A DNA stretch of 48,647 bases from contig JAFYWI010000018.1 in the NCBI GenBank assembly GCA_017558105.1, forward strand, positions 1 through 48,647. The letters are read 5' to 3'. This document shows, in pieces, positions 5,694 through 15,368 of this stretch (position 1 is its first letter; every line of letters begins with the position of its first letter). Position numbers and translations under genes: made by a program. The stretch comes from Clostridia bacterium (GTDB taxonomy: Bacteria; Bacillota; Clostridia; Christensenellales; Borkfalkiaceae). A model generated the notes under the pieces. That model was not told the DNA's origin and did no database searches. It saw only the letters and a list, made by a program, of their open reading frames with translations.

Positions 5694-5766
5694 TCGACAT
5701 TATTTTTACAAATATTTAATATTTTGTACAAAAATATTTGTCTTTATTTTGTTTTTGGTGTAGAAT
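5694..5766 (+). promoter_or_regulatory. spo0A promoter with inverted repeat and 0A-like box
   Basis: A sigma-A-type promoter TTGTCT (5738-5743), a 17-bp spacer and TAGAAT (5761-5766) lies upstream of spo0A. The -35 overlaps one arm of an inverted repeat, ACAAATATTT (5708-5717) and AAATATTTGT (5732-5741), a candidate operator. TGTCGA on the minus strand (5699-5694) matches six of seven bases of the known 0A box TGTCGAA, suggesting autoregulation (inference). Confidence 0.5.
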
Positions 5767-5797: not shown

Positions 5798-6559
5798 ATG
5801 CATAAAAGAACGGTGTTTTTATTGCAAGATACAAAAGAACTCAACGAAGAACTTAAAAACTTATTTGTTAAAGACGGGTTTTATGAAGTAGTTGGTGCAG
5901 AAACAAATGGAGAAGCAGGGCTAAACGCAATTTTAAGCACTAAGCCAGATTACGTTATTACTGAATTAGTTTTACCTGGATACGACGGGCTTTACGTTAT
6001 AGATAAAATTAAAGAAAATTGTTTAGATACTAAAGTTATTGTTTTAAGTGCTTTATGCAGAGAAGAAATTATTTCTAAATGTATAGTTAAGGGCGCAAAA
6101 TATTTTATGGCAAAGCCTTATAATTTTAATCTGCTTAAAAGCCGTATGGAAGACGTAAAGGAAGAAAGCGTGCAAAAAGAAAAAGCAAGTTCAATTAGTA
6201 AAAAAACGGGGCTTTCTTTAGATGAAGAAATTAGCAAAATTTTTATTAACGTTGGAATTCCGCCACACATTAAAGGTTATTCTTTCTTGCGAGAAGGGGT
6301 TAAAATGGCAGTTGAAGAACCAGATATTATTAATAACATAACCAAAAAACTCTACCCTATGATTGGCGAAAAATATCAAACAACGGCATCTAAAGTAGAA
6401 CGTGCTATTCGCCACGCAATAGAAGTTGCTTGGAATAGGGGCAGAATAGAAAACATTAACAACATTTTAGGGGTTAGGGCATACGTTGGTGCAGAAAAAC
6501 CAACTAACGGCGAGTTTATAGCACTCGTTGCCGATAAAATGTTATTAGAAAGGGTGTAA
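5798..6559 (+). CDS. spo0A: Spo0A-type sporulation response regulator with Glu at the phosphorylation site
   Basis: Master regulator of sporulation entry: receiver domain (about 1-125), linker, and the highly specific Spo0A C-terminal DNA-binding domain (about 145-253), recognisable from GIPPHIKGYSFLREGV, VERAIRHAIEVAWNRG and KPTNGEFIALVADK. The receiver is altered. Position 56, the phospho-acceptor Asp in Bacillus subtilis Spo0A, is Glu (context VITELVLPG). In the acidic pocket the first Asp is Gln10, while Asp11 is kept. Ser84 and Lys106, the conserved Thr/Ser and Lys, are present. Glu may act as a constitutive phospho-mimic, so control could shift to expression level (inference). ATG5798 has TAGGAG in front. 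It is monocistronic, with a bidirectional terminator after it. Confidence 0.93.
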   Translation: MHKRTVFLLQDTKELNEELKNLFVKDGFYEVVGAETNGEAGLNAILSTKPDYVITELVLPGYDGLYVIDKIKENCLDTKVIVLSALCREEIISKCIVKGAKYFMAKPYNFNLLKSRMEDVKEESVQKEKASSISKKTGLSLDEEISKIFINVGIPPHIKGYSFLREGVKMAVEEPDIINNITKKLYPMIGEKYQTTASKVERAIRHAIEVAWNRGRIENINNILGVRAYVGAEKPTNGEFIALVADKMLLERV

Positions 6560-6639: not shown

Positions 6640-7425
6640 TTATTCTTTATTTATATATTGTTTTGGAGAAACCCCCATTTCTTTTTTGAATACGGCAGAA
6701 AAATATAAAGGGTCTGAAAATCCAGAAAGCAAGGCAACGTTTTTAACAGAGTTTAAGCCCATATCAAAAAGGCTAACTGCGTTTTTTATTCTTAAAGAGC
6801 GCAAATATTCTATAAAACCTACCTTGGCGTGTTTTTTGAACAGGTGAGATAAATATTTTTCGTTATAATTTAGTTCCTTTGCCAAAACTTTTAAGTTAAA
6901 ACTTGGGTTTGAAAGGTTTTCGGTAGTAATGGTTAAAATTTCTTTTATTAAAGGTTGCTCGTCTTTTTTTTCTGCTTTTAGTTTAGAAAAAGTATGAAGT
7001 AAAATACTTTCTGCTACAAGGTCCATATTATTTTCGTTTGCGTTAAAAAGGCTTTCTTTCCAAAATGGAATTAAAAAGTCTAACTTGCTAAAAACCCTGT
7101 TATTTTTGGTTATAGAAAACCTTTCAAAAAGGTCGTTAGAACGTGTGCCTTCAAATTTTAAATAAGCATATTCTAAATTATTAAAATTAATACAATTATA
7201 AGTTTCTCCCTTAAAGCCAAAAAAAAGGTCGCCTAACTGCAAAGGGAATTCTTTGTTATTAAAAACGAAAGTTCCACTTCCACTTGTAATTAAAAAAACG
7301 TGGTTTTTGTTAATAGTTTTTTTTAATTCTATGGTGTTTTTGTTTTTCTCCCACACGAAAGCAGTTGCTTTTAATGGGGTTTCTGCTATATTTAGCGGAA
7401 ATTTACATACGTTATATCTATCCAT
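6640..7425 (-). CDS. AraC-family transcriptional regulator
   Basis: About 261 residues: an N-terminal cupin-like sensor half (GSGTFVFNNKEFPLQLGDLFF near residues 50-70) and two C-terminal helix-turn-helix units typical of AraC/XylS (LAKELNYNEKYLSHLFKKH and VALLSGFSDPLYFSAVFKK, ending in the family signature MGVSPKQY). A longer frame starts at GTG7434, but the AAAGGTG ribosome-binding site overlaps that GTG and is correctly spaced for ATG7425, so I use the latter. It is divergent from the Gfo/Idh/MocA oxidoreductase 137 bp away, the usual arrangement for a sugar-responsive activator and its target (inference). Confidence 0.88.
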   Translation of the reverse strand: MDRYNVCKFPLNIAETPLKATAFVWEKNKNTIELKKTINKNHVFLITSGSGTFVFNNKEFPLQLGDLFFGFKGETYNCINFNNLEYAYLKFEGTRSNDLFERFSITKNNRVFSKLDFLIPFWKESLFNANENNMDLVAESILLHTFSKLKAEKKDEQPLIKEILTITTENLSNPSFNLKVLAKELNYNEKYLSHLFKKHAKVGFIEYLRSLRIKNAVSLFDMGLNSVKNVALLSGFSDPLYFSAVFKKEMGVSPKQYINKE

Positions 7426-7502
7426 ATTTTTCACCTTTATTAAATTATATCAAAAAAAAGAGCAAAAGCAAACTATTTTACATAAATACATAGAAATTTT
7501 CT

Positions 7503-7532
7503 ATTGTTAAATAAAAAAAACAATGATAAACT
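7503..7532 (+). promoter_or_regulatory. Candidate promoter of the oxidoreductase gene
   Basis: TTGTTA (7504-7509), a 17-bp spacer and TAAACT (7527-7532). The hexamers are imperfect, as expected for an activator-dependent promoter. ATTGTT (7503-7508) and AACAAT (7519-7524) form a short inverted repeat within it. Confidence 0.4.
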
Positions 7533-7562
7533 TTTAATATAAAACTTTATAAGGAGAAAATT

Positions 7563-8798
7563 ATGAAAAAAATTAAAATTGGTGTTTTCGGTATGGGCAG
7601 AGGTATGAACCATGCAGAAAGTTTTTTATGGATTAACGACTGCGAAGTTGTTGCTTTTTGCGAACAACGTGAAGTTATGATAAAAGAAGGGTTAGAAAAG
7701 TTTGGCAAAAACGTGCCTGTTTATTCTGATTTCGATGAATTTTTAAATAGTGGTTTAGATGCAGTTGTTATTGCAAACTATTTCAACGAACACACACCAT
7801 ATATTATAAAATGTTTTGAAAAGAATATTCACGTATTCTGCGAATGTGTTAGTAACGCAACTATGGCAGAAGGTGTAGAACTTGTTAGGGCACATGAAAA
7901 AAGTAAAAGTATATTCTTTTTAGCAGAAAACTACCCACAAATGCTACACAATTTAGAAATGAAAAAGGTTATAGAAAGTGGTATTTTAGGTAAAATAGTT
8001 TATGCTGAATGTGAATATAACCACCCAGGTCCTGGTTTAACCAAAGAAGGAAAAACAAAAATTAACCACTTTGAAAAACATTGGAGAAACTTTTTACCAA
8101 GAACATATTATTTAACACACTCTTTAGGGCCACTATTAAGAAATACAGGTGCATTACCACAAAAGGTTTGTTGTTTTTGCGCTAAAAACGAAATTATTGG
8201 CGACCCAGCAACTGCAAGCCACGTAGGTGATATTGCTGCCGTTATGATAACACAAAACAACGATGGTTCTGTATTTAGGTTCTTTGGTCACTCTTCTTTC
8301 GGTATGGAAGAAAACTCTAGCCGTTTCTGTGGCACGAAAGGTCAAATAGAAAATATGAAACGTAAAAACGAAATTAGAATGTTAATCAACCCTTGGCACG
8401 CACCTGAAGGGCAAGACTATTGGAAGTTCTACGAACCAGAATTTGACGACCCACAAAAAGATTTAATTGAAAAGAGTGGTCACGGTGGTTCAGACTTTAT
8501 TACTGCTAGAATGTTTATTCAATGTATTAAAGAAAACAAGCAACCTGAATATCCGTTTGATATTTACGGCTCTACCACAATGAGTTCAGTTGGTATTTTG
8601 GCACATAGGTCTATGTTAGAAGGTGGTATGCCAAAAGATATTCCAGATTTTAGAAAAGAAGAAGATAGAATTAAATACGAAAACGATAGGCTAACACCTT
8701 TCTATGGCAGAGATGGTTCTAAACCAACCCTACCTTGTTCTTCAGACGTAAACTATAAACCTAGTGAAGAAAGTTTAAGAAAATATAGGGAAATATAA
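7563..8798 (+). CDS. Gfo/Idh/MocA family oxidoreductase
   Basis: NAD(P)-dependent sugar or polyol dehydrogenase-like protein of 411 residues. The N-terminal Rossmann loop is GVFGMGRGMNHAES (7-20), with the family block DAVVIANYFNEHTPYI (66-81). The EKP motif that normally supplies a catalytic Lys reads E94-C95-V96 here, so chemistry or specificity may differ. The C-terminal half has the usual beta-sheet domain and ends with a Pro/Ser-rich tail. ATG7563 has AAGGAG in front. It stands alone, divergent from the AraC regulator; the substrate is unknown. Confidence 0.87.
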   Translation: MKKIKIGVFGMGRGMNHAESFLWINDCEVVAFCEQREVMIKEGLEKFGKNVPVYSDFDEFLNSGLDAVVIANYFNEHTPYIIKCFEKNIHVFCECVSNATMAEGVELVRAHEKSKSIFFLAENYPQMLHNLEMKKVIESGILGKIVYAECEYNHPGPGLTKEGKTKINHFEKHWRNFLPRTYYLTHSLGPLLRNTGALPQKVCCFCAKNEIIGDPATASHVGDIAAVMITQNNDGSVFRFFGHSSFGMEENSSRFCGTKGQIENMKRKNEIRMLINPWHAPEGQDYWKFYEPEFDDPQKDLIEKSGHGGSDFITARMFIQCIKENKQPEYPFDIYGSTTMSSVGILAHRSMLEGGMPKDIPDFRKEEDRIKYENDRLTPFYGRDGSKPTLPCSSDVNYKPSEESLRKYREI

Positions 8799-8957: not shown

Positions 8958-9461
8958 ATGGCTAAATACGTTAAATGCCCTAGGTGCGACTTGAATTATA
9001 TGAAAGATACCGAAGAATATTGCGACGTTTGCAAGGCAGAATTAAAAAAAGGCCCGCAATTAGTTTTCGCCGTTGATGAGGAAGAAGAAGTAGAAACTCA
9101 AATTCTTTGCCCTATTTGCCGTACCGTTTATATTAACGAAGGCGAACAAATGTGCAAAAAGTGCGCCGCTGAAATAGACTTCAAAAAAGACCAAGTCGAT
9201 TTAGATAAAGACGAAGAATGGAAAACTTTCTTAGATGATGAAGATGAAGAAGAGGAAGAAGAAAGCGAAGAAATGATGTCTTTAAATAAACTTGCCGAAG
9301 AAGAACGCGACGAAATGTTCTTTGACGAAGAAGACGAAGAAGAAATTATTGAAGAAGTTCACTCTGAACCAGACGACTTTGAAATTCCAGACGTAGACGA
9401 AAACGACTTTATCGAAGAAGATGAAGAAGAGGAAGAAGAAAGCGAAGACGACGATTTTTAA
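8958..9461 (+). CDS. Acidic protein with two zinc ribbons
   Basis: 167 residues. Two N-terminal Cys4 zinc-ribbon or rubredoxin-like knuckles are visible: CPRC and CDVC (Cys 7, 10, 22, 25) and CPIC with CKKC (Cys 51, 54, 66, 69). The rest is an extremely acidic, low-complexity Asp/Glu tail, probably disordered. No catalytic motif is seen and I do not recognise the family. A protein- or RNA-polymerase-interacting role would be a guess. The ribosome-binding site is GTGGAGAT before ATG8958. veg follows 47 bp later without a terminator, so they may share a transcript. Confidence 0.75.
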   Translation: MAKYVKCPRCDLNYMKDTEEYCDVCKAELKKGPQLVFAVDEEEEVETQILCPICRTVYINEGEQMCKKCAAEIDFKKDQVDLDKDEEWKTFLDDEDEEEEEESEEMMSLNKLAEEERDEMFFDEEDEEEIIEEVHSEPDDFEIPDVDENDFIEEDEEEEEESEDDDF

Positions 9462-9875: not shown

Positions 9876-11375
9876 ATGGAGCCTGTTTTTGAAAAAGTTA
9901 GTATTAGGGCAAACTCTAACGTTTTTACCGATGAAGTAAAAGCAGAATGTCGTACGGATATTTTTTCTGGTAGCGTAAACAAAATATTAAGCGTAAACGC
10001 TTACGTTTACCCAGAAGATGAAAGTGTAGAAGATGGCAAAATTAGGTATGGTGGCAAAGTAATTTTTAGAATTTGCTACGTAGACGATGAAAAGGTTTTA
10101 AGAAAATGCGAGTGTGGTAACGAATTTTTCGGCACAATTTTGGCAAACGTTTCTAACGGAAGCACTTTTAACGTTAATATTACAGCAGAAAAAGTTAATT
10201 ACGATTTAACAGGCTCTAAATTAATAGTTAGTGCATTAATTTTAACCAACGTTAGCGTAAACGAATATAAAGAAATGCAACTTCTTAGCGACGGCAAAGA
10301 TTTTATTTGCGATAAAAAAGAAACTGCCGTTATAAACAACTTTGGCGTTAAAAAAATTAATTACCCAATAGAAGAAGAAATTGAATTAGGCTATATGGTA
10401 AAAGAAGTGTTAACGCACGGCACTACTGCTTGCATTACTTCTTGCCAATGTGGCGTAGGTTGCGTTATAGTAGACGGCGAAGTGTATTTAAGTGCACTAT
10501 TGTTGCAAAATAACGAAAATAGTGGTATAATTCGTGAAGATAAGGTTTTACCTTTCCGTATAGAAGTTGAATACGAAGAAAGTATGCCACAAATGTTGGC
10601 AACGGCAAAGGTTTCAGTTAAAGGGTTCAAAACGGAAATTTCGGTAGATGAAGAAAAGGGTGTTAGCCTTGTAACTGCCACCATAAACTTAGGGTTTAGG
10701 GCGCAAGTGTTTACCGAAGAACAAGTTTTATTAACGGCAGACGCTTTTTCTGTTAGCGAAGAACTTTCACTAACGAAAACAGACTGCGCGTTTATTAAAC
10801 CACTAGCCGTTAAAACTATAAAAGAAAGAATTTCAGAAAGGGTAGCCGTTAACGAACTTTCTGCCGACAAAAAGGTGGTTTGTGCCTATGGCGAAAAGGT
10901 AGAAATTGTTGCTACTTCGTTAGAAAACGGGCAATTAAAAGTGGTTGGCGTAGTAAGTGGCAAGGCTATTTTACAAGGTGAAGAAGGTTTACAAACGCTT
11001 GCAATAGACCTACCTTTTGAAAAGGTTTTAGATTGTATTATTGAAGAAAATAACCTTTATTCTGTAAGCGTATTGCCAACTAACTTTACAATAAAACTTA
11101 TTACTGCGCAAGAATTAGAAGTTGCTTTAGACGGCGTGTTTACAATTTACGCAGAAGAAAAAACCTTAATTAAATGTGTTAACGAAGTTAACGTTTTAGG
11201 CGAAAAACCAATTAACGAAAAGGCTATTAGCGTATATATTTCCACAGAAGGCGAATCTTTATGGTCGCTTGCAAAACGCTTAAACGTTTGCCCAGAAAGT
11301 TTATTAGAAACTAATAACGATTTAGATTTTCCACTTTCTGGCAAAGAAAGAATTGTGGTTTATAGGCAAAAATAA
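9876..11375 (+). CDS. SipL-like spore coat morphogenetic protein (DUF3794 repeats plus LysM)
   Basis: 499 residues made of repeated DUF3794 (SPOCS) modules followed by a C-terminal LysM domain (about 450-497, STEGESLWSLAKRLNVCPES). This is the layout of SipL of Clostridioides difficile, which binds the coat ATPase SpoIVA through its LysM domain and anchors the coat basement layer; SpoVID is the functional counterpart in Bacillus. The DUF3794 modules show the KVSVKGFK- and VYVYPE-like strands. GGAGG precedes ATG9876. ispE follows 16 bp downstream. Expression in the mother cell under sigma-E is expected from the family; I did not find a convincing sigma-E promoter. Confidence 0.85.
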   Translation: MEPVFEKVSIRANSNVFTDEVKAECRTDIFSGSVNKILSVNAYVYPEDESVEDGKIRYGGKVIFRICYVDDEKVLRKCECGNEFFGTILANVSNGSTFNVNITAEKVNYDLTGSKLIVSALILTNVSVNEYKEMQLLSDGKDFICDKKETAVINNFGVKKINYPIEEEIELGYMVKEVLTHGTTACITSCQCGVGCVIVDGEVYLSALLLQNNENSGIIREDKVLPFRIEVEYEESMPQMLATAKVSVKGFKTEISVDEEKGVSLVTATINLGFRAQVFTEEQVLLTADAFSVSEELSLTKTDCAFIKPLAVKTIKERISERVAVNELSADKKVVCAYGEKVEIVATSLENGQLKVVGVVSGKAILQGEEGLQTLAIDLPFEKVLDCIIEENNLYSVSVLPTNFTIKLITAQELEVALDGVFTIYAEEKTLIKCVNEVNVLGEKPINEKAISVYISTEGESLWSLAKRLNVCPESLLETNNDLDFPLSGKERIVVYRQK

Positions 11376-12369: not shown

Positions 12370-12900
12370 ATGAAAAAGTTTTGCATAAGTATTTTAATTT
12401 TTACCATAATAATTTTGTCGGTAGTTTGTATAAATTTTCAATCTAACCAAACCACTACGGAATATTTAAGAATTCATATTCGCGCAAATTCTAACCAAGA
12501 AGTAGACCAAAATATTAAATATAAAGTTAAAGACGCCGTCGTTTCTTATTTAACGCCAGGGCTTTCTAACTGCAACACAAAGTTAAAGGCAAAAACCTTT
12601 TTGCATTCTAACCTTAAAAGTTTAGTTCAGGTTGCAAACAACACGTTAAAAAACGGTGGATATAATTATTCTTCTACGGCAAAGTTAACAAACGAAGAAT
12701 TCCCTACAAGAGTGTACGGCGAGTTCGTTTTAGAAGGTGGTTATTACGATGCTTTAATAATTTATTTAGGTGATGGCGAAGGTGATAATTGGTGGTGCGT
12801 CGTATACCCACCACTCTGTTTTGTTGGTGGCAACGGCAACCTTGAAATAAGAAGCAAAATTATTGACCTTATAAACGATTTTAGAAAAAGATTTAATTAG
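12370..12900 (+). CDS. spoIIR: Stage II sporulation protein R
   Basis: 176-residue secreted signalling protein made in the forespore, which triggers SpoIIGA to process pro-sigma-E in the mother cell. An N-terminal hydrophobic segment (about 4-22) acts as signal peptide or anchor. The family blocks RIHIRANSNQEVDQNIKYKV, EEFPTRVYGEFVLEGGYYDA, and the diagnostic DNWWCVVYPPLCF near the C-terminus are all visible. Sigma-F control is expected. GTATA at 12308-12312 could be a sigma-F -35 element, but the -10 region fits poorly. The stop is TAG, and the cortex hydrolase gene begins eight bases later behind GGAGG, suggesting co-transcription. Confidence 0.93.
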   Translation: MKKFCISILIFTIIILSVVCINFQSNQTTTEYLRIHIRANSNQEVDQNIKYKVKDAVVSYLTPGLSNCNTKLKAKTFLHSNLKSLVQVANNTLKNGGYNYSSTAKLTNEEFPTRVYGEFVLEGGYYDALIIYLGDGEGDNWWCVVYPPLCFVGGNGNLEIRSKIIDLINDFRKRFN

Positions 12901-12908
12901 GAGGATTA

Positions 12909-13595
12909 ATGAAAAAGGCTATTAAAATAATAACTCTGTGCCTAATGCTTATAACTATGTGCGTGTGTGTAGTTGGCGTTTCGCCAAACGCAATTAAAAC
13001 AGAAACTGCCTACGCAGTAGTATACAAGCAAGGTAATACGGGTAGCACGGTAAGAACAATACAACAAAAATTAAAAAACTGGGGGTACTACACGGGCATC
13101 GTAGACGGCATTTATGGTTCAAAAACGGTTAGTGCCGTAAAATACTTCCAAAGAAAAAACAACTTAACGGTAGACGGCATAGTGGGTAATCAAACGTTAA
13201 AGGCGCTTGGCATTACGGCTTCTTCTAGTGGAAGCAGTTATAGCGATGCCGATATTATGCTTTTAGCAAGGTTAATTTACGGCGAAGCAAGGGGGGAAAG
13301 TTACGTTGGACAAGTGGCAGTTGGCGCTGTCGTTATGAACAGAATTAAAAGTTCGTCTTTTCCTAACACGATGTCGGGGGTAATTTACCAAAAATATGCT
13401 TTTACTGCCGTTAGCGACGGGCAAATAAATTTAACACCAAATGCAACTGCTAAAAAGGCAGCGCAAGATGCCATTAATGGTTGGGACCCTTCTTACGGGG
13501 CAATTTATTATTACAATCCAAAAGTTGCAACTAGTTCGTGGATTTTTACAAGAAAAACCACGGTTACGATTGGCAACCACGTGTTTGCCGTTTAA
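12909..13595 (+). CDS. sleB: Spore cortex-lytic enzyme SleB
   Basis: 228-residue exported germination hydrolase. It has a signal peptide (about 1-37), a peptidoglycan-binding domain type 1 (about 43-97, with GSTVRTIQQKLKNWGYYTG and a VDGIYGSKT repeat), a Ser/Gly linker, and a Hydrolase_2/SleB catalytic domain (about 110-228) with ARLIYGEARGESYVGQVAVG carrying the catalytic Glu. SleB cleaves muramic-delta-lactam-containing cortex during germination and depends on YpeB, encoded next. The gap to ypeB is 15 bp with its own ribosome-binding site. The length is slightly short for the family. Confidence 0.92.
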   Translation: MKKAIKIITLCLMLITMCVCVVGVSPNAIKTETAYAVVYKQGNTGSTVRTIQQKLKNWGYYTGIVDGIYGSKTVSAVKYFQRKNNLTVDGIVGNQTLKALGITASSSGSSYSDADIMLLARLIYGEARGESYVGQVAVGAVVMNRIKSSSFPNTMSGVIYQKYAFTAVSDGQINLTPNATAKKAAQDAINGWDPSYGAIYYYNPKVATSSWIFTRKTTVTIGNHVFAV

Positions 13596-13610: not shown

Positions 13611-15368
13611 ATGGAAGAAAAGAAAAATAACGCTGTTGAAAAAGTAGAAAACGCAGAAAAAAGTGTTGATATCGTTAAAGATAACAAACAACAAAAGCAA
13701 ACTAGAAAAAAATTATTAGAACAAAAACGCAAAGAAAGGTTGGCAAAAAAACAAGAAAGAAAAGCCCTAAAAGAGCAAGTTAAGGCAGAAAGAGAAAAAA
13801 TTAGGGCAGAAAAGCGCATAGAACTTGCCAGAATTAAAGCCAAGAAAAAAAGCGAAAAAGAAAAAGCAAAGGCTTCTAAAATTAGAGAGCGCAATAGAAA
13901 ACAAGCCTTATTAAAAGAAAAAAGGGCAGAAAGAAAAGCCGAAAAACAACGCCAACTTTACGAACTTGCAACCATAAGGGCGCAAGAGAAAAAAGCTTTA
14001 AAAGAAAAAAGAGCAAACCAAAGACAAAAAAATAAAGAAGAAGGCAGAAGTTATGGTGGCTGGCTTGCAGCAGTAATTTCGTTAGGTATAGTTTCGCTAG
14101 TGCTAGCATCTGCGCTTACCTTTACCTTTTTAATGCCAAGTGCTTCTGACGGCATGTTAGAAACTAATTATAAAAGAAGTTTTACAAACGTTGTTGAACA
14201 AGTAGACAACATAGACTTAAACCTTTCTAAAATAATTGCTACTAAAGATAAAGGCGCAATGCAAGTTTATTTAACTGATACTGCAGTAAATAGCGAACTC
14301 GCCGAAAACGATTTAAGTAGTTTACCACTTCACGATGAAAATAAGTTTTACACCACTAAGTTGGTAAACCAAATTGGCGATTTTTCTAAATATCTAAACA
14401 AAAAACTTGCCAACGGCAATTCTTTAACCAAAGAAGATTATAAAGGCATTGTTCAACTTTACGAAGCCAATAAAATGCTAAAAGAAAGTTTAAGAAGAAT
14501 GATGGATGAAATGGGCAATAATTTTAACTTTTCTTCATTAGAAAAGCAAGATAAACGAAACGTTGTTTTAGCAGGTTTTAACGAACTACAAAACCTTTCT
14601 GTAGATTTACCAGAATTAATTTACGACGGACCTTTTAGCGACGGGCAAAGCGCAAGGGAAGTTAAAGGGTTAAAAGGCAACCAAATTACAAGCGAAGAAG
14701 CCAAAGCCGTTTTTAACAAAATTTTTGCAAACAAAAACTTTGAAAAAGTAGAAACGTTAGGCGAAAGCAATGCTAAAATAAATTGCTATAACGTTCAAGG
14801 TTGCGTAGGTGAAGAAACTATTTATGCAGAAATTTCTAAACAAGGTGGCAAACTAATTATGTTTGACGTTATGGGAAGTTGCGAAGAAATTAATTTTTCT
14901 TTTGAATTCGCAGTAGAAAAAGCCGAAGAATTCTTAAAAAATCTTGGCATAGAAGGTATGAAAGCAGTTTGGACTAATTTAGCAAATAACGTTTACACCA
15001 TAAACTTTGCTTATACAGAAAATAACGTAATTATGTATGCAGATTTAATTAAAGTTAGGGTATGTGCCGAAACTTGCGAAGTAATTGGTTTAGAAGCAAC
15101 CGAATACTTTACTAACCACGTAGAAAGAAAGGTTGCAACCCCACTATTAAGTAAAGGGGAAGCAAAAAGTAAACTTAACGTAAATATAGAAGTTAAAAGC
15201 AGTAGGCTTGCAGTAGTGCCTGTTGGCAATAGTAACGAAAGGCTTTGCTATGAATTTATGGGCGAATTAGACGGCGCAACTTTCTACGTTTATATAGATG
15301 CAACTAACGGCAAACAAGTAGAAATGTTTAAGGTTGTAGAAGGTACTGAAGGCACGTTGTTGATGTAA
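13611..15368 (+). CDS. ypeB: Germination protein YpeB with a long charged N-terminal extension
   Basis: 585-residue membrane protein. Residues from about 180 to the end match YpeB, which stabilises SleB in the spore, with PepSY-like repeats toward the C-terminus (ATPLLSKGEAKSKL and FYVYIDATNGKQVEMF). A single transmembrane helix lies at about 149-176. Unusually, residues 1-148 form a Lys/Arg/Glu-rich, Ala-punctuated stretch resembling a long single helix or coiled coil. YpeB of B. subtilis is about 450 residues with only a short N-terminus, so this is an added cytoplasmic domain. Codon use matches the rest of the gene, with no sign of a frameshift or fusion scar. It is operonic with sleB and a terminator follows. 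Confidence 0.88.
   Translation: MEEKKNNAVEKVENAEKSVDIVKDNKQQKQTRKKLLEQKRKERLAKKQERKALKEQVKAEREKIRAEKRIELARIKAKKKSEKEKAKASKIRERNRKQALLKEKRAERKAEKQRQLYELATIRAQEKKALKEKRANQRQKNKEEGRSYGGWLAAVISLGIVSLVLASALTFTFLMPSASDGMLETNYKRSFTNVVEQVDNIDLNLSKIIATKDKGAMQVYLTDTAVNSELAENDLSSLPLHDENKFYTTKLVNQIGDFSKYLNKKLANGNSLTKEDYKGIVQLYEANKMLKESLRRMMDEMGNNFNFSSLEKQDKRNVVLAGFNELQNLSVDLPELIYDGPFSDGQSAREVKGLKGNQITSEEAKAVFNKIFANKNFEKVETLGESNAKINCYNVQGCVGEETIYAEISKQGGKLIMFDVMGSCEEINFSFEFAVEKAEEFLKNLGIEGMKAVWTNLANNVYTINFAYTENNVIMYADLIKVRVCAETCEVIGLEATEYFTNHVERKVATPLLSKGEAKSKLNVNIEVKSSRLAVVPVGNSNERLCYEFMGELDGATFYVYIDATNGKQVEMFKVVEGTEGTLLM

Follow-up and report, generated by a model that had tools for sequence, protein, structure and literature searches.

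A Spo0A orthologue with an aspartate-less receiver in a Clostridia bacterium, and an incomplete phosphorylation site in most sampled members of its family

According to a review, in its accessible part (PMC11210211), all endospore formers begin sporulation through Spo0A, which becomes active when a conserved Asp is phosphorylated. In Clostridia, that review and work on the evolution of the Spo0 pathway (PMC6136694), each in the portions available, treat this Asp as conserved and describe a direct pathway in which orphan kinases phosphorylate it on a single Spo0A. Receivers without the Asp form an established group, with Glu, Asn, Ser, and Gly as the usual replacements; in regulators like ChxR and RitR, the pocket Lys and the Ser/Thr are mostly kept (PMC4395418, accessible text). 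That text names no natural aspartate-less Spo0A. We found no description of an aspartate-less Spo0A lineage in the open-access literature (subscription papers and preprint servers were outside the scope of the search).

The window analyzed here is a stretch of 48,647 nucleotides from a Clostridia bacterium (assembly GCA_017558105.1, contig JAFYWI010000018.1), of a family that we take to be the GTDB Borkfalkiaceae, order Christensenellales. The assembly amounts to 1.07 Mb and is 85% complete. The window encodes a Spo0A (Table 1) that, like those of Bacillus and Clostridia (TIGR02875, PF08769), is a full-length orthologue with a canonical DNA-binding domain. It exceeds the equivalog cut-off of TIGR02875 over its full length (237.2 bits vs. 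200), and profile searches of the window and of the genome give 128.2–130.3 bits for Spo0A_C and 59.8–61.1 bits for Response_reg. In the alignment with the solved Spo0A_C chains 1fc3 and 1lq1, the segment TTAS-VERAIRHAIEVAW is the same except for one Lys/Arg. The match and the alignment bear out the preliminary description, in which this half of the protein was called canonical.

The difference from the Spo0A of Bacillus and Clostridia lies in the receiver, where the phospho-acceptor Asp is missing and the acidic pocket is incomplete, and in the genome, where no kinase was seen. The Glu56 and Gln10 reported in the preliminary description are confirmed by the codons (GAA and CAA), with Asp11, Ser84, and Lys106 present. 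As in ChxR and RitR, the protein combines a receiver domain (the fold being taken from the Pfam match) with another residue at the phospho-Asp position, and it is in this sense an aspartate-less receiver. The conserved phospho-acceptor Asp and the complete acidic pocket typical of Spo0A are not there (Glu56, Gln10). Such an absence is a feature of the activation mechanism and not of descent; it weakens the statement that the protein is activated like Spo0A, not its orthology. Judged by its sequence, the protein is truly the Spo0A orthologue of this lineage, and its receiver is a pseudo-receiver of the aspartate-less kind.

Table 1. Positions in the window of spo0A, its site codons, and the upstream and neighboring features
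Feature	Positions	Strand	Basis or remark
spo0A, 253 aa, receiver and Spo0A_C	5798..6559	+	ORF, profile matches
Degenerate (aspartate-less) receiver domain	5813..6148	+	Response_reg; the sole one found in the genome
Codons 10–11, Gln (CAA)–Asp, acidic pocket half lost	5825..5830	+	Codon 10 at 5825–5827
Codon 56, Glu (GAA), in place of the expected phospho-acceptor Asp	5963..5965	+	Codon reading, alignment
Codon 84, Ser, switch Ser/Thr retained	6047..6049	+	Alignment
Codon 106, Lys, conserved pocket Lys retained	6113..6115	+	Alignment
Spo0A_C DNA-binding domain, canonical	6230..6538	+	Profile match, alignment to solved chains
Spo0A-box-like site TTTTACAAA, one mismatch, upstream of spo0A	5704..5712	+	Box scan
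Palindrome TTTTGTACAAAA upstream of spo0A, sole full copy in the window	5722..5733	+	Window scan
Zinc-ribbon acidic protein	8958..9461	+	Weak Pfam matches; repeatedly downstream of spo0A in members of the genus and of other families
SipL (SPOCS domain), spore coat morphogenesis	9876..11375	+	Profile match
SpoIIR	12370..12900	+	Profile match
SleB-type cortex hydrolase (Hydrolase_2 and PG_binding_1)	12909..13595	+	Profile match
YpeB	13611..15368	+	Named in the preliminary description, confirmed

Exactly one Spo0A_C domain was found by profile search in the window's genome (85% complete). A second, canonical Spo0A, raised from the start as an objection to the Glu56 reading, was found neither there nor in the genomes of the genus searched with Spo0A_C; the domain is single copy in 43 of 44 genus genomes, many of them incomplete. 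A sequencing error at codon 56 is unlikely, since 28 of the 42 Spo0A aligned from the genus, the window's among them, have Glu56, and all of these come from genomes of different species.

The preliminary description left to an alignment of orthologues whether Glu56 is fixed in the lineage; it is not. In the genus, residue 56 is Glu in 28, Gly in 9, and Asp in 5 of the 42 Spo0A. In 14 other genera of the family (70 Spo0A), Gly (20), Ser (19), Asp (17), Asn (9), and Glu (5) occur, and these five residues are the only ones found among the 112 Spo0A of the family. Outside the family (68 Spo0A of 23 other families of the order), Asp is found in 61, and the sole replacement is Glu (7, in families f6, f9, f18, and f25). 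These loci are mostly best-scoring Spo0A_C matches and not a random draw, the outside ones may include paralogues (L279 probably), and the receiver sample lacks three of the 18 genera that were drawn (g4, g6, and g15). The alignment and the tree leave out L009 (in-frame stop) and L262 and L269 (partial receivers).

The strict five-residue site (acids at 10 and 11, Asp56, Ser/Thr84, and Lys106) is complete in 0 of 42 Spo0A of the genus and 1 of 70 of the other genera, i.e., 1 of 112 in the family vs. 51 of 68 outside. A looser form (one acid at 10 or 11, Asp56, and Lys106) is present in 2/42, 13/70, and 60/68, respectively. The Pro of the D-x-x-x-P motif disappears along with the site (6/42 and 2/70 in the family, 58/68 outside). 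In the genus, with two alignment rows missing some N-terminal residues, Gln10 is found in 38 of 42 Spo0A, Asp11 in 30, and Lys106 in all. Residue 11 is non-acidic in 9 of the 41 that show the position, and it is Ser in 40 of 70 from the other genera. On these alignments, the observation is much wider than the preliminary description stated and covers most sampled members of the family. In this, it differs from the aspartate-less receivers of PMC4395418, as far as that text goes: here most of a family carries the change.

Asp56 is retained in genera g2 (5/5), g17 (2/2), g18 (1/1), and g7 (8/14), and the Spo0A of g2, g17, g18, and part of g7 might still undergo phosphorylation. Among the five genus Spo0A with Asp56, three (L013, L019, and L033) have no acid at 10 or 11, so that Asp56 there is not a restored site. 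Some genomes of the other family genera hold two to three Spo0A_C domains and mostly one locus was read per genome; a second, canonical Spo0A is therefore possible in those genera. In family f18, the Spo0A of L256, L258, L276, and L278 carry Thr-Ile at 10–11 together with Glu56, a second and separate pocket-less lineage. In L009 (genus genome G007), an in-frame stop lies between the receiver and the DNA-binding domain, with a separate 111-aa ORF containing Spo0A_C; this points either to an error in assembly or to a DNA-binding half that occurs naturally on its own.

A tree of 160 proteins was made by a quick method with the site columns removed (20 later-added proteins of the 112 + 68 set are absent). 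The family forms one side of a branch with SH-aLRT 98. Position 56 changes at least 34 times over this tree and at least 10 times inside the genus (among Glu, Gly, and Asp). The earliest splits within the family are not ordered in this tree, which is compatible with one or with several losses of Asp56. By Spo0A identity, Candidatus Coproplasma (L133, L136, and L145) groups with g7 (85–89%) and Candidatus Gallimonas (L183) with g9 of the family (86%). The Spo0A of Pumilibacter muris (L139) is identical to that of a member of f29 and has a canonical site. From the 40 closest pairs of the genus, the median dN/dS is 0.106 for the receiver (dS being defined in 29 pairs), against 0.033 for the DNA-binding half (27 pairs), both rough values with high dS. 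With dN/dS around 0.1, the receiver looks to be under purifying selection and does not look to be decaying.

We did not observe any HisKA domain in the window's genome (profile search with the HisKA and HATPase_c models only), where a kinase could be missed because the assembly is 85% complete. The five HATPase_c matches there are GyrB, a second GyrB/ParE-type topoisomerase subunit, MutL, HtpG, and SpoIIAB. In the same assembly, the Response_reg search found no receiver domain besides that of Spo0A. The other genomes of the genus contain 1–5 HisKA in 16 of 17 searched, and the other genomes of the family 1–7 in 35 of 36 (range 0–7), which counts against a kinase-free reading. Outside the family, the number ranges from 0 to 15 (26 genomes).

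The single Spo0A of the genus is as in the direct pathway of Clostridia (PMC6136694 and PMC11210211, accessible parts). In that pathway, the kinase phosphorylates the conserved Asp. Here this Asp has been lost, and the 15 genus genomes examined show no orphan kinase, since all 29 HisKA loci adjoin a receiver ORF (one of them weak and partial). This adjacency discriminates poorly because, in a control with the 18 best-scoring of 30 HisKA from four outside genomes, 15 have a separate receiver ORF as well (the other three are hybrids only). In genome G080 of the family, the two kinases examined are hybrids with no separate receiver ORF adjoining, and they are possible orphans.

Kinase scarcity was considered as proof of a kinase-free control and is weak as such, because genomes throughout the order have few HisKA and one genome without any keeps Asp56. 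The f25 genomes G279 and G441 (99–100% complete, 0.9–1.0 Mb) have one receiver and no HisKA, and the Spo0A of G441 retains Asp56 with Asp10/Glu11, which counts against an argument from kinase loss. Six genomes among 80 are without HisKA: Glu56 occurs in G000, G015, G064, and G263, Asp56 in G441, and the sixth is G279. The four with Glu56 belong to three different lineages, a number too small for testing. The proposal, already made in the preliminary description, that control of Spo0A has left phosphotransfer holds as probable, given a genome in which no kinase or second receiver was found (85% complete) and a site that is degenerate throughout the genus and in the greater part of the family. 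In genome G053 (f1, genus g11), at least 50 receiver domains occur in 2.0 Mb, far above its relatives.

The Spo0A box has the consensus TTYGACAAA. The form TTTGACA is close to the −35 box of sigma-A, which counts against reading such sites as Spo0A boxes. As with Bacillus and Clostridia, boxes are present in the genus at spoIIA, spoIIGA, and spo0A. Upstream of spoIIAA, among 23 genus genomes (the 25 with SpoIIAB minus G039 and the too-short L209), an exact box occurs in 13 vs. 0.11 in shuffles, and a box with at most one mismatch in 20 vs. 3.6. It lies ∼85–94 bases upstream, at a place fixed in most members of the genus. Upstream of spoIIGA (20 of 41 genus genomes), 17 have a box with at most one mismatch (2.5 in shuffles) and none an exact one. 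The stretches compared were picked after the box positions were known, and the shuffles test the stretches and not the choice. The spoIIAA box is inverted in L208 and L219 of the genus, and it reads TTCGACA in g6 (2/2), g14 (1/1), and g17 (1/2); neither form suits a −35 box. In the other genera of the family, the spoIIAA box is weak (5/11 vs. 1.7 shuffled, with a largest shuffle of 5). In the species of the window, the spoIIA box has two mismatches.

Upstream of spo0A itself, an exact box is found in 16 of the 37 genes from the genus, 28 of the 68 from other family members, and 16 of the 69 from outside (0.9, 1.3, and 0.8 when shuffled). When one mismatch is allowed, the mean numbers of sites are 2.1, 2.1, and 1.0 (shuffled 0.57, 0.45, and 0.34), or 3.7, 4.6, and 2.9 times the shuffled density; the difference between the genus or family and the outside is partly one of base composition, since the shuffled means also differ. 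In the species of the window, there is no exact box upstream of spo0A, and the palindrome TTTTGTACAAAA may correspond to two overlapping half-boxes. The core of the palindrome, TTTGTACAAA, precedes spo0A in 13/37 of the genus, 9/68 of the other family members, and 3/69 outside (shuffled 0.12, 0.10, and 0.08). The box excess outside the family and, in the species of the window, the two mismatches before spoIIA, the missing exact box before spo0A, and the SpoIIGA not found all count against the explanation favored below.

SpoIIR, a SipL-like protein, SleB, and YpeB, all four read earlier in the window, are present. Elsewhere in the genome, an operon has SpoIIAA, SpoIIAB, SigF, and SpoVAC as best matches. 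SpoIIAB is above its cut-off (168.7 vs. 135); SpoIIAA (76.7/114.75), SigF (276.2/321.45), and SpoVAC (158/164) are under their curated cut-offs. SpoIVA is present, and SpoIIGA was not found by profile search (genome 85% complete). In the 44 genus genomes, many incomplete, matches above cut-off occur for SpoIIAB in 25, SpoIIGA in 41, and SpoIVA in 36. Among 18 near-complete ones, SpoIIAB has no match above cut-off in G017, G031, and G033, in which Spo0A, SpoIIGA, and SpoIVA are present. The organism of the window may sporulate, to judge from genes and Spo0A boxes; the preliminary description called this probable. In the literature, a machine-learning study (SpoMAG, PMC12536801) predicts Borkfalkiaceae MAGs to be non-sporulating, and a MAG study (PMC11536998) reports sporulation genes in Borkfalkiaceae, both as given in their accessible parts.

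What was observed, all of it genomic, in the sequence, distribution, and selection of these Spo0A, in the boxes of the genus, and in the assembled part of a genome without kinase or second receiver would best be explained by an aspartate-less Spo0A that acts without phosphotransfer, its amount (through autoregulatory boxes) and/or a ligand or partner of its pseudo-receiver setting its activity; we consider this more probable than not. Erosion of the phosphorylation site would have begun at the base of the family or close to it; Asp56 survives in a few members, and the whole site in one. Position 56 would then have drifted among Glu, Gly, Asp, Ser, and Asn, with the receiver under purifying selection throughout. 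Unphosphorylated Spo0A would bind the 0A boxes and dimerize via the pseudo-receiver. Entry into sporulation could then depend on the concentration of Spo0A, via the boxes before spo0A, and/or on a ligand or partner that the pseudo-receiver binds, a kinase having no further part in it. Control by the amount of an autoregulated Spo0A may be favored, because boxes and palindrome precede spo0A. The fuller proposition, that a gut family enters sporulation without phosphotransfer, with a non-phosphorylated, autoregulated pseudo-receiver Spo0A read by concentration or ligand, and with the species of the window left with this only receiver and no kinase, is advanced tentatively, its chances being put a little below even.

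Alternatively, Glu56 (with Gln10) could mimic the phosphorylated Asp and render Spo0A constitutively active in the genus, or at least in the species of the window. Glu is indeed the commonest residue at 56 in the genus (28/42), the only replacement outside the family (7/7 non-Asp), present in four of the six HisKA-less genomes among 80, and, at 26%, the replacement found most often among aspartate-less receivers as a whole (PMC4395418, accessible text). However, 14 of 42 genus Spo0A have Gly or Asp, with at least 10 changes within the genus, 65 of 70 Spo0A from the other genera are non-Glu (48 with Gly, Ser, or Asn), and three of the five genus Spo0A with Asp56 have no acid at 10/11. The same text states, naming Spo0A and citing Green 1991, that Asp-to-Glu alone is often insufficient. 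As a general explanation, the mimicry suggested in the preliminary description is set aside because residue 56 turns over, switching between Glu, Gly, and Asp at least 10 times in the genus; it is at best part of the story and unlikely as the main explanation. Residual phosphorylation appears very improbable, whether on another acid (e.g., Asp11) or on a remaining Asp56 by the kinase of another regulator, a hybrid kinase, or a small-molecule donor. Asp11 (30/42) and Lys106 (42/42) persist in the genus, and 16 of its 17 other genomes searched have kinases, but the window's genome has neither a detected kinase nor a second receiver, and residue 11 is non-acidic in 9 of 41 genus Spo0A and mostly Ser (40/70) in the other genera.

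Sporulation could also be in the course of being lost in the lineage, with Spo0A a remnant or serving other genes. The non-sporulating prediction for Borkfalkiaceae MAGs (PMC12536801, accessible part) would agree, as would SpoIIAB being above cut-off in only 25 of 44 genus genomes and missing from three of 18 near-complete ones. In the window's genome, SpoIIGA not being found, the degenerate spoIIA box, and the low scores of SigF, SpoIIAA, and SpoVAC point the same way. Yet, with many genomes incomplete, a single Spo0A_C is kept in 43, SpoIIGA in 41, and SpoIVA in 36 of the 44, purifying selection on Spo0A is strong, and the spoIIA boxes stay at a fixed place in most members of the genus; such a loss is rather improbable.

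If Spo0A does act without phosphotransfer, the decision to sporulate could run without a kinase, an exception to the rule of the review across most of a family (with its targets conserved in the genus examined), and spo0A in a MAG would be no sign of a phosphorelay. The natural series of Glu, Gly, Ser, Asn, and Asp at one site would form a test set for how the receiver gates the DNA-binding half.

The zinc-ribbon protein of Table 1 has a very acidic tail, and 30 of the 80 named loci have its gene close to spo0A. In many relatives, its gene is the first recurrent same-strand neighbor downstream of spo0A; in the window (6640–8798), an AraC-type regulator and a GFO/IDH/MocA oxidoreductase separate the two. 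As a partner specific to Spo0A, it was dropped, because it recurs near spo0A in other families as well.
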